A stretch of DNA of 64,000 bases from Chthonomonas sp. (GTDB lineage: Bacteria > Armatimonadota > Fimbriimonadia > Fimbriimonadales > Fimbriimonadaceae). Under the pieces are notes generated by a model. That model searched no databases. It had not been told where the DNA came from and saw only the letters and a list, made by a program, of their open reading frames with translations. The position numbers and the translations under genes are program-made. The stretch covers positions 620,001 to 684,000 of the forward strand of contig JAEURQ010000002.1 in assembly GCA_016788425.1 (NCBI GenBank). Direction: 5' to 3'. Shown in pieces: positions 22,116 through 31,697 of the stretch; positions within the stretch are counted from its first letter, which is position 1; each line of letters begins with the position of its first letter.

Positions 22116-23483
22116 CTATCCGGCAATAACGAGTGCGGGGCATTGTTTGGCAACGTCCCGTAGTCCACCTATTAGCTCGGCGACATTCGACAGTCCAGCT
22201 CTTTTCAAAATCGAGAGTGCGATGGGTGATCGAGCCCCGGACGCGCAGTGAACAACGATTTTTCGGTCTGTTGGTAGTTCGCCCACCCGCTGCGCTAAGT
22301 AGCCTAGTGGAATGTGGATGGAGCCGCGCACAAGAGACTGTTGCCGTTCATTGAGATTCCGAATATCAAGCATGACCTCAGTTCCGGTCAATTGCCCACA
22401 CGCGATGGTCGGCACCATTGAACCGCCTCCAGTTAGATTCGAGGCTTCCATCCACCCTGCCACAACATCCAGACCAATCGTGGCAAGGTCTCGAGCGGCG
22501 ACGTTCGCTTGCCGTTCAGACTCCGCGAGCAGGGTCACCGGGACCTCGTATTCGAGCAGCCAGCCAGCCCAGTTGGTGAGGCCGGTGCCGCTTGGGATAA
22601 CTAGGGATCCGGCATGGTAGTCCGATCTTGAAACATCTTTCTTCCGAACATCGACCAGCATCCCTTCGACTTCCATGAGTTGCGCTAGTTTCGGCATCCC
22701 GGTAAGGATCGGCGGGCCTGCTTTGTTTAGGCGCTTCATGGTTTTGAAGTAGGGCGGTGCGTCTGGTTGACCGCTTAACACGGTAGCAACAAATGTCTGT
22801 TCGTCAGAAGCCGAAAGCGCCCAGTTTGTTTCACGCTCATATCCCAAACTCGAAACGGGACTTCCACCAAGAGACTTCCCACAAGCTGACCCAGCACCGT
22901 GACCCGGCCAGATAAGAAGCGAATCTGGCAGGTCACGGAGTTTTTGAACTGAACGGAATAAGGAGCGAGCGCTTTCCTCCATTGTGCCGGCCATGTTGGC
23001 CACAAGCTCCAGCAAATCGGGCCGGCCAACATCACCAACAAAGAGGAAATCACCCGTGAACAAGGAGTGCGGCAGTTGCCCCGCGGGATTGTCCGTTAGC
23101 AAGAAGGACAGATGTTCTGGAGTGTGTCCCGAAGTATGAATCGCTTTCAGGGAGAGATTTCCGATCTGAATCACGAAGCCGTCGGTGATGAGTCGAGCGC
23201 CCTGTTCATCGGCAAAGTCGTACTTCCACTGGTCATCGCCCTCATCACTAAGGTACATGGTTGCACCTGTCGCGGCGGCAAGCTCGCGTGTCCCAGAAAC
23301 GAAGTCAGCATGAATATGGGTTTCGGTGACGGCCGTGATTCGCAGGTTATGCTGCGTAGCGGTCTTAAGATATTGAGCAATATCTCGGATCGGGTCAATG
23401 ACAATTGCTTCGCCAGTCTCCCCGCATGCAACTAGATAAGACGCCTGCGCAAGATTTTCGTCGTAGAAATGGCGGATGATCAC
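22116..23483 (-). CDS. Persulfide dioxygenase-sulfurtransferase, CstB-like
   Basis: A 455-residue fusion of three domains, in the order of Staphylococcus CstB. The first is a metallo-beta-lactamase-fold persulfide dioxygenase (about 1-230) with T-H-I-H-A-D-F, S-G-H-T, T-G-D-F-L-F and P-G-H-G. The second is a rhodanese-like domain without a Cys (about 255-345). The third is an active rhodanese with Cys413 in V-H-C-A-S-G-A-R. It converts glutathione- or other persulfides to sulfite and thiosulfate, in cytoplasmic sulfide detoxification. The start overlaps the upstream rhodanese gene by four bases (ATGA). It is the last gene of a four-gene unit led by a sigma factor. Confidence 0.9.
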   Translation of the reverse strand: MIIRHFYDENLAQASYLVACGETGEAIVIDPIRDIAQYLKTATQHNLRITAVTETHIHADFVSGTRELAAATGATMYLSDEGDDQWKYDFADEQGARLITDGFVIQIGNLSLKAIHTSGHTPEHLSFLLTDNPAGQLPHSLFTGDFLFVGDVGRPDLLELVANMAGTMEESARSLFRSVQKLRDLPDSLLIWPGHGAGSACGKSLGGSPVSSLGYERETNWALSASDEQTFVATVLSGQPDAPPYFKTMKRLNKAGPPILTGMPKLAQLMEVEGMLVDVRKKDVSRSDYHAGSLVIPSGTGLTNWAGWLLEYEVPVTLLAESERQANVAARDLATIGLDVVAGWMEASNLTGGGSMVPTIACGQLTGTEVMLDIRNLNERQQSLVRGSIHIPLGYLAQRVGELPTDRKIVVHCASGARSPIALSILKRAGLSNVAELIGGLRDVAKQCPALVIAG

Positions 23484-24061
23484 GCGCTTCGTACCTCAGA
23501 GGCCGTTCCTTGGCTTTTTGCAGATCGATTCCAGGGAAGCTTTGCTAACAAAAGGGCCATACCGCAGATGTTGGTGAGGCCTGCGAAGCAAAGCCCGGCG
23601 CCAATCGCCATCGTCAAGTAAACCCATCCAGGAGCGCTGGTGACGGTCATTACCGATCCGAGAAGGACCAGGAATCCTGCACCCAATCTCACTTGACGCT
23701 CGAGTGACCAGCGCGAGGAAGTCGAAGATACGACGGGACCGCCTGAGTCGATCCAGGACTTGGTGCCCCCTTGCACCAGCAGCAAGTCACCGTGATGCTG
23801 AGAAAGAATGTCGCAGGCGAGTTGGGCACGCGCACCCGATTGGCAAAGAATTGCGACTGGACCTGAGCTGAAATCCATGAGGCGGCCCTCCAGTTCCTCA
23901 AGCGGAACATTCAGTGCATGGGGAACGTGGCCGGCGGCATACTCTCCCGCGGATCGCACATCAATCAATTGCAAAGAGTCGTGGTTATCAAGGCGAGCCC
24001 GAAGCTCCATTGCGGTAATTATCTGGTGTCCCATGGTAAGGAAGAGGCGCGTGAATAACAT
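23480..24061 (-). CDS. Membrane-anchored rhodanese (rhodanese plus DUF2892)
   Basis: A 193-residue protein. Residues about 12-115 are a rhodanese domain with the active-site loop C-Q-S-G-A-R-A; the C-terminal part is a two-helix DUF2892 membrane segment, as in E. coli YgaP. It would move persulfide sulfur at the inner face of the membrane. The start could be ATG 24061 (7 bases after the TSUP stop) or ATG 24034 (M-G-H-Q); neither has an SD, so 24061 was kept for coupling. It fits between an exporter and the CstB-like enzyme in one operon. Confidence 0.88.
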   Translation of the reverse strand: MLFTRLFLTMGHQIITAMELRARLDNHDSLQLIDVRSAGEYAAGHVPHALNVPLEELEGRLMDFSSGPVAILCQSGARAQLACDILSQHHGDLLLVQGGTKSWIDSGGPVVSSTSSRWSLERQVRLGAGFLVLLGSVMTVTSAPGWVYLTMAIGAGLCFAGLTNICGMALLLAKLPWNRSAKSQGTASEVRSA

Positions 24062-24067
24062 AGTGAT

Positions 24068-24814
24068 TCAGGTCAATCGGAAAATCATGAGAGCTCCGAC
24101 GCTGATCACCAGGTAGGCGAATGCAACTCGAAGCGCTCTTACCGGTACAACGTGGCGGCTAGCTATCCCAACGGTCAGGCCAACGAGGGCTGCACTTGTC
24201 ACGGCCAGCAGGAAGGACCAGGGGATCGAACCGGAGAGCTCACTGGCAAATCCGGCTATTGATTGGAGGGCAATCACAAGGAGGGAAGTGGGAATTGCTT
24301 GCTCCATGGGCAAGTCCATCAACAGAGTGAGGACCGGCAGGATAAGGAAGCCGCCGCCCGCTCCGAGGGTGCCGCTGATCAGGCCAATCCCAAAGCCAAG
24401 TGTCAACACTTTGCCCGTCTTTGGGCCTTGGGATGATGGTGACGACGGTTTCCAAAGCATCTTGAACCCGACAAGGAGCATAAGAATCCCGAATCCCGCC
24501 AGGATCAATTGGTCCTTTGTCCACCAAAAAACCTGCGCCGGAAGGTTTGGAATGATCGCTTTTCTGGCGAGAACGGCCCCGGCCATTGAGGGCAGAGCGA
24601 GAAGGGTTGCCGCCTTCATTTGGGTTTGCCCTCGAACAACACCGGAGGTCGCACCAACCAGACTGGTAACTCCCACGATGAACAGTGAATTGCCAGTCGC
24701 CGAAGTAGCGCTTAGACCGAACAATCCGGTTAAGATCGGCACCGTAAGAATTCCTCCTCCTCCGCCGAACAGTCCGAGCAGTATGCCCATGGCAAAGATT
24801 GCGAACCACCCCAT
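24068..24814 (-). CDS. TSUP (TauE/SafE) family sulfite/organosulfur exporter
   Basis: A 248-residue membrane protein with seven to eight hydrophobic segments. It has two repeated family motifs, G-L-F-G-G-G-G-G-I-L-T-V-P near the start and G-T-L-G-A-G-G-G-F-L-I-L-P in the middle. TSUP proteins move sulfite, sulfoacetate or related anions. Downstream of it are the rhodanese and the persulfide dioxygenase, so export of the sulfite they make is likely. It starts 33 bases after the sigma gene with AAGGA three bases before the ATG. Confidence 0.88.
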   Translation of the reverse strand: MGWFAIFAMGILLGLFGGGGGILTVPILTGLFGLSATSATGNSLFIVGVTSLVGATSGVVRGQTQMKAATLLALPSMAGAVLARKAIIPNLPAQVFWWTKDQLILAGFGILMLLVGFKMLWKPSSPSSQGPKTGKVLTLGFGIGLISGTLGAGGGFLILPVLTLLMDLPMEQAIPTSLLVIALQSIAGFASELSGSIPWSFLLAVTSAALVGLTVGIASRHVVPVRALRVAFAYLVISVGALMIFRLT

Positions 24815-24847
24815 GTCCTTAGAGAGACGGCGTTTCCCGAAACTGAT

Positions 24848-25345
24848 TCAGGTACTGCAGATCGAAGTATCTAGAGACTGCCGGACGAGAACCCGAGCGC
24901 GAAGGAGTCGCGACTTGGCCGCGTTGTGCGTGATGCCAAGGTGCAATGCGGCCTCCACGACGGTTTGCTCTTCGAGTTCGCACGCCACGTAAATCTCCCT
25001 GTATATGGTGGGGAGTTGCTCAATCGCGTCCTTCACACAACCTTTGATAACCGCCGCGTCGAATTCGGATGCGTCATTCAATAAGTTGTGCTCCTCGGCG
25101 AACTCGAGAGCCGTGTGAATTTCTTTGTGGTGGCGCATGCGAGCGCAGACCCTAGCGCCGATGGTCCCTAGCCAGGTTCGAAAGCCCTCCTCGGATCGCA
25201 GTTGGTCATGGGCCTGAAAAGCCAACATCAGAGCCGTGGCGAGCGCATCCTCGGCATCCTCGCGATGGTTACAAACTCGAATCATCTGTCGATAGACTGC
25301 GTCTTTGTGACGATTGGCCAACGTCTCGAACGCCGACGCATTCAT
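24848..25345 (-). CDS. ECF-type RNA polymerase sigma factor, cysteine-rich
   Basis: A 165-residue sigma-70 family protein with region 2 (about 5-70, D-A-E-D-A-L-A-T-A-L) and region 4 (about 105-158, L-P-T-I-Y-R-E-I-Y, then A-A-L-H-L-G-I-T-H-N-A-A-K-S-R-L-L-R-A-R). It has five Cys: 25, 67, 103, 122 and 163, the last three residues from the end. No anti-sigma gene is adjacent. It heads the sulfur operon (TSUP, rhodanese, CstB-like), so it probably drives these genes in response to sulfide or persulfide. A 16-codon reading frame derived from a dinB start overlaps its ATG (ATGA). Confidence 0.85.
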   Translation of the reverse strand: MNASAFETLANRHKDAVYRQMIRVCNHREDAEDALATALMLAFQAHDQLRSEEGFRTWLGTIGARVCARMRHHKEIHTALEFAEEHNLLNDASEFDAAVIKGCVKDAIEQLPTIYREIYVACELEEQTVVEAALHLGITHNAAKSRLLRARVLVRQSLDTSICST

Positions 25346-25852: not shown

Positions 25853-26608
25853 TTACGGAGTAAACGTGCGCGACGACGCCCGGATTCCTTTTCGCAAGAC
25901 CGCAACCATGGCCAGCCCCAACGCAGCGAGCCCGGCCGGCTCCGGAACGACGGTGTACTCCAGCCGCGGTTTCGGGGTGGTTGGTGCGACCGCGCCGGTT
26001 GGGTCCGTGAACGAGAACAGCAGTTGGTCGGTCAGCGGCGGATGGCCAGCGAGCGTGGTTAGTCGGCCAGTCGCGGCCCACTTGCCCGTTCCCAGCCGAG
26101 CCTCGTTGAGCTTGATGAGGGCGGCTCCGCTGAGCGTGAGCACCAGATCGGTGCCCATCGAATCCACCGAGACGGTGGTCAGCGTATACGGCATTCCCGT
26201 GCCGAAGGTGCTCCACATCATGGCCGCCACGGAGGTCGGAATTACCGGCGTGGAGATGTCATCGGCAGTGAACGGCGTGTCTGTCACCAAGTAGTCCTCG
26301 GTCGGGTCCGGGCTGATGTAGCCGAAGCCTCCGTCCGGCGGAAACTTTGGGACATAGAGCTTGAGCTTGGCCGAGACGATCGGTCCGGCTGCGCCGGAAA
26401 CATCAAAGAGAAAGAAGTTGCGCCGCTCGGGAATGATCGTCGAGCCGATGAACGTGTTGCCGACCGCATGATTCTGGAACCCGGGGCTGTTGCTCTTAGT
26501 CCCGTCAGCGAAAAACACCCCGGTGAGATAGGAATCGATCTCCACCGCCCGGGCAGGTACGGCCGCCAGCGCGATCGCCCCCACGCAAAGAACCTGAAGC
26601 TTCTTCAT
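25853..26608 (-). CDS. PEP-CTERM exported protein
   Basis: A 251-residue protein with a signal peptide (1-21), a beta-rich body resembling surface-adhesin or DNRLRE-like domains (F-L-F-D-V-S, then S-A-K-L-K-L-Y), and a C-terminal sorting region, V-V-P-E-P-A-G-L-A-A-L-G-L. The tail after the helix is longer than usual and carries basic residues. A minus-strand TATAAT lies eight bases before the ATG, with no SD, so it is close to leaderless. Its neighbour across a 150-base gap is another PEP-CTERM gene. Confidence 0.85.
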   Translation of the reverse strand: MKKLQVLCVGAIALAAVPARAVEIDSYLTGVFFADGTKSNSPGFQNHAVGNTFIGSTIIPERRNFFLFDVSGAAGPIVSAKLKLYVPKFPPDGGFGYISPDPTEDYLVTDTPFTADDISTPVIPTSVAAMMWSTFGTGMPYTLTTVSVDSMGTDLVLTLSGAALIKLNEARLGTGKWAATGRLTTLAGHPPLTDQLLFSFTDPTGAVAPTTPKPRLEYTVVPEPAGLAALGLAMVAVLRKGIRASSRTFTP

Positions 26609-26759
26609 CAATGGCGATTATAAGAGATCATTCGCCGAATGACATGCCCCGTATGAAAACCTGGTAATCCGACCCCGCAAAATTGGCATCTAGCAACTTT
26701 CTCGGGCAAAAGTGAAACATTTCTTAACAAAAGGCTCTCAAAGGTTTCGGGAGAAAGAA

Positions 26760-27419
26760 ATGAACTTTCACAAAATTATTGTCGCCGCGGCGTGCGCCGC
26801 ACCGGCCATGGGTTTGGCCCAAATCAGCATTTACGACGCCTCTTACCGGCTGGAGGCCGACGCTCGATCCGGGGCTTCGTTCGATACCCACACCGCATTC
26901 CTCAACAACATGGGGCCGGTGCAGGGCTTCGGCCAGCAGATCGACTCCTTCGCTAACCAAGCCTCGAGCAATGTGCATACCTTTGCCAGCGCCGCCTGGA
27001 ACTGCAGCCCGACGACATTGAGTCTGTCCTTGGTGGCGTGCTGGGTTTCCGTGGACAACGGGGCCGGGAATAGCGGGCACATGATGAGCCGTGCCACCTT
27101 GGGCATTGATGTTCCGAGCGTACATGCCGTCACGACGATGGCCCAATTCGATCCGCCGAATTCGTTCACCGAAATCGACATGCTGGTGGGGACGACCTGG
27201 GTGCTGCACGTCAGCCGGACGCAGATTCAGAACTATTCGGGCTTCTGGATGCCTGGCAGCTACCGGTTGCGCTCGCAGCGGCTCTATGACCGCACCGGGA
27301 ATTCCACCGGCTGCGTGCCGTATTCCTTTGGTCTAACGGCAACGCCCGTGCCCGAGCCGGGCGGGTTGCTCGCCTTGGGCTTGGGTGGCCTTGCGCTTCT
27401 CCGTCGCAAACGCGCTTAA
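26760..27419 (+). CDS. PEP-CTERM exported protein
   Basis: A 219-residue protein: signal peptide (1-20), a beta-rich body of unknown fold, and a textbook C-terminal signal, P-V-P-E-P-G-G-L-L-A-L-G-L-G-G, then R-R-K-R. The start is ATG 26760, not the in-frame ATG 26712, because the signal peptide begins there and GGGAG precedes it at a good distance. Function unknown; a matrix or surface role is likely. Confidence 0.87.
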   Translation: MNFHKIIVAAACAAPAMGLAQISIYDASYRLEADARSGASFDTHTAFLNNMGPVQGFGQQIDSFANQASSNVHTFASAAWNCSPTTLSLSLVACWVSVDNGAGNSGHMMSRATLGIDVPSVHAVTTMAQFDPPNSFTEIDMLVGTTWVLHVSRTQIQNYSGFWMPGSYRLRSQRLYDRTGNSTGCVPYSFGLTATPVPEPGGLLALGLGGLALLRRKRA

Positions 27420-29066: not shown

Positions 29067-29489
29067 ATGCACGCCGATGTGGAGTCCCGACTCCGCCACG
29101 CAAACCTTCGCCTCACGGCCCCGCGCCAGGTGGTGCTGCAGGTGGTGGAAGGTGAAGGCAAGCATCAGGATGCGGAGTTTATCGTGCGCGCGGCCCGCGT
29201 CAGGTTGGCGAAGATCTCACGTCAGGCGGTGTACAACAACCTCAACGCTTTGGTCGCGGCGGGAATTCTACGCCGGATCGAACCGGCCGGGCGGCCCGCT
29301 CTGTATGAAACCAGAGTAGGTGATAACCATCACCACCTCATCTGCCGGACCTGCCACGCCACGGTGGATATTGATTGCGCCGTCGGGGCGGCTCCGTGTC
29401 TGCAACCCAACCTTTCTCATGGCTTCGTCATTGACGAGGCCGAAGTCGTCTACTGGGGGATCTGCCCCCACTGTCAGTCCAAGTCCTAA
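29067..29489 (+). CDS. Fur/PerR family metal-dependent regulator
   Basis: A 140-residue repressor. Residues about 8-85 form the winged helix (T-A-P-R-Q-V-V-L-Q, then S-R-Q-A-V-Y-N-N-L-N-A-L). The dimer domain holds H-H-H-L-I-C-R-T-C, with a second CxxC pair (C-P-H-C) at the end for the structural zinc. It lies 9 bases before katG in the same direction, so it probably represses katG and itself, and is relieved by peroxide or low metal (FurA/PerR style). Binding-site residues alone do not tell Fur from PerR. A TAGACT at 29055-29060 ends six bases before the ATG. Confidence 0.9.
   Translation: MHADVESRLRHANLRLTAPRQVVLQVVEGEGKHQDAEFIVRAARVRLAKISRQAVYNNLNALVAAGILRRIEPAGRPALYETRVGDNHHHLICRTCHATVDIDCAVGAAPCLQPNLSHGFVIDEAEVVYWGICPHCQSKS

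Positions 29490-31697
<2,208 letters not shown>

Follow-up and report, generated by a model that had tools for sequence, protein, structure and literature searches.

A putative ECF sigma factor for reactive-sulfur stress, with conserved cysteines and a candidate promoter class of its own, in Armatimonadota

The closest described systems are those of CstR, a DUF156 protein that controls CstA/CstB/SQR operons, and of SqrR/BigR, which belong to the ArsR family; all of these are DNA-binding repressors. To our knowledge, and in the literature that we searched, the known regulators of reactive sulfur are all repressors or DNA-binding proteins (CstR, SqrR/BigR, FisR, MarR, PerR and OxyR). A search for a sigma factor associated with a persulfide dioxygenase or with CstR returned no ECF-controlled case, and no report of a reactive-sulfur-controlled ECF was found in the literature searched, whose scope left out many subscription papers. 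CstR is described as persulfide-sensing (PMC5016687). Among ECF sigma factors, SigK of M. tuberculosis (ECF18/19) carries a redox-active cysteine pair, C133-C183, and works with RskA, oxidation stabilising the inactive complex (PMC7509140). CorE and CorE2 (former ECF44, ECF238) bind metals with a Cys-rich domain at the C-terminus and with a CxC situated in the linker, and SigC (ECF36) is an ECF without anti-sigma factor for which a self-occlusion between sigma2 and sigma4 has been proposed (PMC8999054). In the SigR-RsrA couple, sensing falls to RsrA, a zinc anti-sigma factor (PMC4960319).

The window analysed here is a stretch of 64,000 nucleotides (G000:C2:620001-684000) from the 2.67-Mb genome G000 of a Chthonomonas sp., which was compared with genomes of other Fimbriimonadaceae and of other Armatimonadetes (the families f2, f5, f10, f13, f19, f27 and f28). 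As the original prediction had proposed, an ECF sigma factor gene comes first in the operon. In this tight same-strand cluster it is followed by a TauE gene, a gene for a rhodanese with a YgaP-like transmembrane part (RhdTM) and a gene for a metallo-beta-lactamase (MBL) and rhodanese fusion (PDO):

24848-25345, minus strand: ECF sigma factor of 165 aa with regions 2 and 4 and without C-terminal extension (Pfam and fold matches to ECF sigma factors)
24823-24850, minus strand: candidate promoter motif 1, TGAATC-N18-CTCT, 8 nt upstream of the start codon of TauE and overlapping the stop codon of the sigma gene
24068-24814, minus strand: TauE/SafE family sulfur-anion transporter, 248 aa (PF01925, 4e-37)
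24043-24070, minus strand: candidate promoter motif 2, TGAATC-N18-CTCT, 8 nt upstream of the likely start codon of RhdTM and overlapping the stop codon of TauE
23480-24034 (ORF 23480-24061), minus strand: RhdTM, rhodanese and YgaP-like transmembrane protein (Pfam; start re-read from homologues and motif)
22116-23483, minus strand: MBL persulfide dioxygenase-rhodanese fusion (PDO), CstB-like (Pfam), overlapping the RhdTM gene by 4 nt

The assignment of the first gene is substantiated by Sigma70_r2 (3e-8) and Sigma70_r4_2 (5.5e-11) matches, both above the curated cut-offs; PF04542 and PF08281, with a linker between them, are the only domains of the protein, and its best PDB fold matches are ECFs. 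Region 2.2 contains a DAED motif (D30, A31, E32 and D33), at which ECF43 differs, and in the orthologue alignment A1 the residues D30, A31 and D33 are invariant and E32 almost so. Over its entire length, the PDO protein aligns with MBL-rhodanese proteins of known structure (3tp9, 4e-117; 3r2u, 3e-107); with an MBL domain and, after it, rhodanese domain(s), it has the CstB-type layout and is a predicted CstB-type persulfide dioxygenase-rhodanese. For RhdTM, the ATG at 24034 is probably the true start rather than that at 24061, since the latter would place promoter motif 2 inside the gene. The codon usage score of this open reading frame (23480-24061) is low in comparison with its neighbours, and it is perhaps an acquired gene.

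Like the CstR and SqrR/BigR systems, the set of genes associated here and in relatives comprises PDO-rhodanese, rhodanese/TusA, TauE, SQR and YeeE-like genes, with a proposed Cys-based sensing of reactive sulfur; unlike these repressors, the candidate regulator is an activating sigma factor that has its own class of promoter, in a genome devoid of DUF156. The resemblance to SigR lies in a thiol-stress regulon driven by an ECF, thioredoxin included, but the sensor there is RsrA and not the sigma factor. As with CorE/CorE2, the sigma factor has no apparent anti-sigma factor, CorE being controlled through its own Cys; in contrast to them, it ends two residues after C163, without a Cys-rich domain, and has no CxC in the linker. 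SigC differs in that neither a Cys switch nor a sulfur regulon figures in its description.

Orthologues of the sigma factor, defined at E <= 1e-20, were found in 62 of the 85 Fimbriimonadaceae genomes, and the family was extended to other families by profile search. The sigma gene adjoins TauE, RhdTM or PDO genes in Fimbriimonadaceae, in two f5 genomes and in f10, f13, f27 and f28, in several gene orders (sigma-TauE-RhdTM-PDO, sigma-RhdTM-PDO, sigma-RhdTM-PDO-TauE, sigma-TauE-PDO-RhdTM, RhdTM-PDO-sigma and convergent). The retention of the same partners through repeated rearrangement argues for a functional link between the sigma factor and the sulfur genes. Some other orthologues adjoin a convergent RND pump, followed by thioredoxin in two loci (L057 and L058). 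This RND operon, which encodes an HlyD-type adaptor and a multidrug-like RND permease, faces the sigma gene in convergent orientation in five genomes (L055, L057, L063, L064 and L097-L139), and its adaptor gene carries the TGAATC/CTCT motif in about a dozen loci of the family; an export of sulfur compounds is possible.

We propose that TGAATC-N18-CTCT is a likely ECF promoter class, comprising a -35 and a -10 element. Its consensus, TGAATCcTTTt and then TGnCTCT, has an ECF-like arrangement and usually lies 7-14 nt before the TauE or RhdTM start codon. Genome-wide counts, which were obtained by pattern searches, gave only five exact-N18 matches in the window genome, two of them in this cluster, and those clearly at gene starts are the ones of TauE and RhdTM only. 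Within 120-nt upstream regions of the family, the motif was found before 14 of 33 TauE genes under strict matching (22 under loose matching) and before 32 of 55 RhdTM genes (40 under loose matching), the shuffled-sequence means being 0.02-0.04 for strict and about 0.5 for loose matches. The corresponding regions of PDO genes contained no strict match (0/42) and one loose match. We considered whether TGAATC is the mere context of the sigma stop codon and rejected this explanation, since the motif also stands before RhdTM genes that are not preceded by a sigma gene (L055, L059 and L067), including RhdTM genes at a distance from sigma, and in other families precedes SQR and TusA genes. For the motif before RhdTM in genomes with versus without the sigma factor, the counts were 39/49 versus 2/5, a weak difference (Fisher p = 0.08) which reaches p = 0.013 when two incomplete sigma-less genomes are left out (G085 and G086, where the RhdTM motif is present and no sigma match was obtained).

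The motif also delineates a wider candidate regulon in the relatives. With the pattern TGAATCNNTTN{13,15}CTCT, the 62 sigma-containing genomes of the family yielded 113 matches versus 22 for the reversed control, and the 23 genomes without the sigma factor yielded 15 versus 5. Matches at promoter positions, all of them in sigma-containing genomes, precede RhdTM, TauE, HlyD-type pump adaptors, thioredoxins, an SQR, an OsmC, a peroxiredoxin and outer-membrane efflux genes. In 54 genomes from outside the family, the strict consensus had 29 matches and the reversed control none. It was present in 13/17 sigma-containing f2, f10 and f13 genomes versus 1/28 genomes without the sigma factor (Fisher 4e-7), or in 13/26 versus 1/28 when all sigma-containing genomes were counted (Fisher 1e-4), these p-values being only indicative because the two sets were chosen by score and genomes of the same family are not independent. 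In f10 and f13, the sigma gene adjoins TauE-RhdTM-PDO and the motif is present. Variants of the motif were also seen in f10 (L298 and L299) before genes for secreted-looking proteins near the sigma and sulfur genes, one of which has a C-terminal YHS/TRASH-like domain. The f2 relative of the sigma factor is not beside sulfur genes, and four SQR genes of f2, located by protein similarity independently of the motif, are immediately preceded by it or by a variant that differs in one base; no motif was found at the SQR of G001, which has the sigma factor. The targets in f2 are SQR, TusA, rhodanese-MBL and YeeE-type sulfur transport genes, the kinds of gene of which reactive-sulfur regulons consist; a Blh-like gene also counts among the targets of the motif. 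The strict motif was found in 0/9 of the f19, f27 and f28 genomes with weaker sigma matches: the f19 relatives have C25 and C67 and are not beside sulfur genes, and those of f27 and f28 are beside PDO genes, yet lack the strict motif. The motif thus occurs across much of the phylum Armatimonadota, and from synteny and motif together, which make strong comparative evidence, the sigma factor very probably controls the sulfur regulon, acting from promoters within the cluster. The composition of this regulon makes reactive sulfur a likely stimulus.

A broader function, in which the sigma factor would be a general regulator of thiol, electrophile or metal stress and the sulfur genes only a part of its regulon, is in our view improbable. 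The RND-pump adaptor, thioredoxin, OsmC and peroxiredoxin genes behind the motif in relatives, and the YHS/TRASH-like domain in f10, are compatible with it. Against it, the clear gene-start motifs of the window genome are confined to TauE and RhdTM, the common denominator over four families is sulfur oxidation and transfer, and the RND pump scores higher with multidrug than with CusA-type models.

Returning to a sigma factor dedicated to reactive sulfur, its own expression appears to be independent of the motif, which was found in 0/70 of the 120-nt regions upstream of sigma genes; autoregulation was rejected on this ground. The suggestion that the sigma factor activates its own operon is therefore upheld for the downstream genes, which carry the motif, and not for the sigma gene itself. 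Upstream of the sigma genes, a TAnnnT box of housekeeping type lies near the start codon in 19/63 regions versus 7.5 in shuffled sequences, and no shared regulatory motif was seen there beyond this excess. Given that its gene lacks the motif and that about a third of the genes have TAnnnT boxes, the sigma factor is probably present before the stress and controlled after its synthesis. ECFs regulated at the level of transcription are known (PMC8999054), and it can be imagined that the sigma factor is constitutively active, the operon being regulated through transcription of the sigma gene by some further regulator; we hold this to be very improbable, as nothing but the TAnnnT excess was seen in the upstream regions and the conservation of the cysteines would be left unexplained.

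Control after synthesis raises the question of a partner. The absence of an adjacent anti-sigma factor or repressor, which had been pointed out in the original prediction, is borne out: none lies beside the sigma gene, and what stands upstream of it varies among orthologues. A CstR gene elsewhere, which had been named as potential counter-evidence, is also missing, PF02583 (DUF156/CstR) having no match in the whole window genome, although such a gene is present in 16/37 genomes searched; control of this operon by CstR is accordingly rejected for this genome. The only conserved neighbours of the orthologues are the sulfur genes or the RND pump and thioredoxin, with no adjacent RskA-type gene, and no conserved anti-sigma gene was found beside the sigma gene in about 32 orthologous neighbourhoods, despite many rearrangements. 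Since there is neither an adjacent anti-sigma gene nor a CstR in the genome, control through the sigma factor's own thiols would be the simplest model. The main rival to it is an anti-sigma factor or adaptor encoded elsewhere, which would hold the sigma factor over the same regulon and promoter, the cysteines being structural or serving that interaction, as in SigK-RskA. Most ECFs work through such a partner, the C133-C183 disulfide of SigK modulates the binding of RskA (PMC7509140), and of the four zf-HC2 anti-sigma-type domains in the whole genome, none of them near the sigma gene, the one in the protein at C1:119922 (a 553-aa open frame) is unpaired with any ECF match found. Set against the much-rearranged neighbourhoods, in which no such gene has been kept beside the sigma gene, we regard this partner as rather unlikely.

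Own-thiol control directs attention to the cysteines. The five cysteines reported for the sigma factor are present in the open reading frame, whose ECF nature Pfam supports, and the one said to lie near the end is the third residue from the C-terminus:

25271-25273, minus strand: Cys25 codon, where sigma2 helix 1 ends, directly ahead of the DAED of region 2.2, invariant
25145-25147, minus strand: Cys67 codon, in the third helix of sigma2, invariant within the family, though common among ECFs at large
25037-25039, minus strand: Cys103 codon, first sigma4 helix
24980-24982, minus strand: Cys122 codon, closest clade only
24857-24859, minus strand: Cys163 codon, third residue from the C-terminus

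A lack of conservation, which would have counted against sensing, was not observed for C25 and C67, each present in 63/63 family orthologues and in all 14 distant relatives sampled (~30-40% identity). The original expectation holds for four of the five cysteines, C103 (53/63) and C163 (55/63) being also strongly conserved, and fails for C122 (19/63). In a background set of 32 further ECFs, taken from this order and genome, the counts were 1/32 for C25, 21/32 for C67, 0/32 for C103, 0/32 for C163 and 0/32 for C25 and C67 together. An apparent C25/C67 pair in a paralogue of the same genome (L007) was discarded as an alignment error, a second alignment placing V at position 25. Only C25 is both diagnostic and universal, because C67 is common in ECFs and C103 and C163 are partly missing, including from some PDO-linked orthologues (L303, L307 and L308). 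By these alignments, C25/C67 is the lasting pair and the sigma4 cysteines C103/C163 are a later addition. In the genus g30, seven orthologues (L028, L207, L211, L212, L220, L227 and L228) lack C103, retain C163 and have gained a second C-terminal Cys that makes a CxxC, with four Cys in total; this swap of C103 for CxxC was probably a single event. The AlphaFold model (pLDDT 87, pTM 0.45) would place C25, at the end of helix 1, and C67, late in helix 3, at the same end of the sigma2 bundle and beside DAED, a geometry deduced from helix order alone. In SigK, whose two Cys lie close to the beginning of sigma4 and close to the C-terminus, the pair is placed similarly to C103/C163, a likeness of approximate position; the A1 profile spans residues 42-203 of the SigK chain 4nqw_A. 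Unlike in SigK, there is no adjacent RskA-type gene here and the universal pair is C25/C67.

We propose that the protein is an ECF sigma factor dedicated to reactive-sulfur stress (sulfide/persulfide). Its gene would be transcribed independently of TGAATC-N18-CTCT, and the protein would direct RNA polymerase to two such promoters, one before TauE and one before the RhdTM-PDO pair, and in relatives also to promoters before SQR, TusA, YeeE, thioredoxin and RND-pump genes. Its activity would be set by its own thiols, with the C25/C67 pair in sigma2 lying beside the core-polymerase-binding region and C103/C163 in sigma4 reinforcing this control in Fimbriimonadaceae; persulfidation, polysulfide bridging or the loss of a bound metal could switch it on. 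Taken as a whole, with the regulon and control by own thiols, we slightly favour this explanation. For direct sensing by the sigma factor's own cysteines, as originally suggested and most plausibly by C25/C67 in view of their conservation, the chances appear about even. Somewhat more tentatively, this may be the first ECF family to sense reactive sulfur itself, C25/C67 (with C103/C163 in one lineage) being persulfidated, bridged or stripped of metal without any anti-sigma factor.

One phylum appears to run such sulfur genes by a sigma factor that has a promoter class to itself. Were this protein the sensor as well, it would constitute a compact one-protein persulfide switch that is free of anti-sigma factor and could serve as a biosensor part; it would also offer a clean test case of the control of a sigma factor by its own thiols. 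Even without direct sensing, the motif offers a predictable and testable regulon in an understudied phylum.

By reading of the window outside the cluster, two divergent genes at 25853-27419 encode products with C-terminal PEP-CTERM-like sorting signals, and at 29067-31697 a Fur/PerR-like regulator gene lies directly upstream of a katG-like catalase-peroxidase gene.
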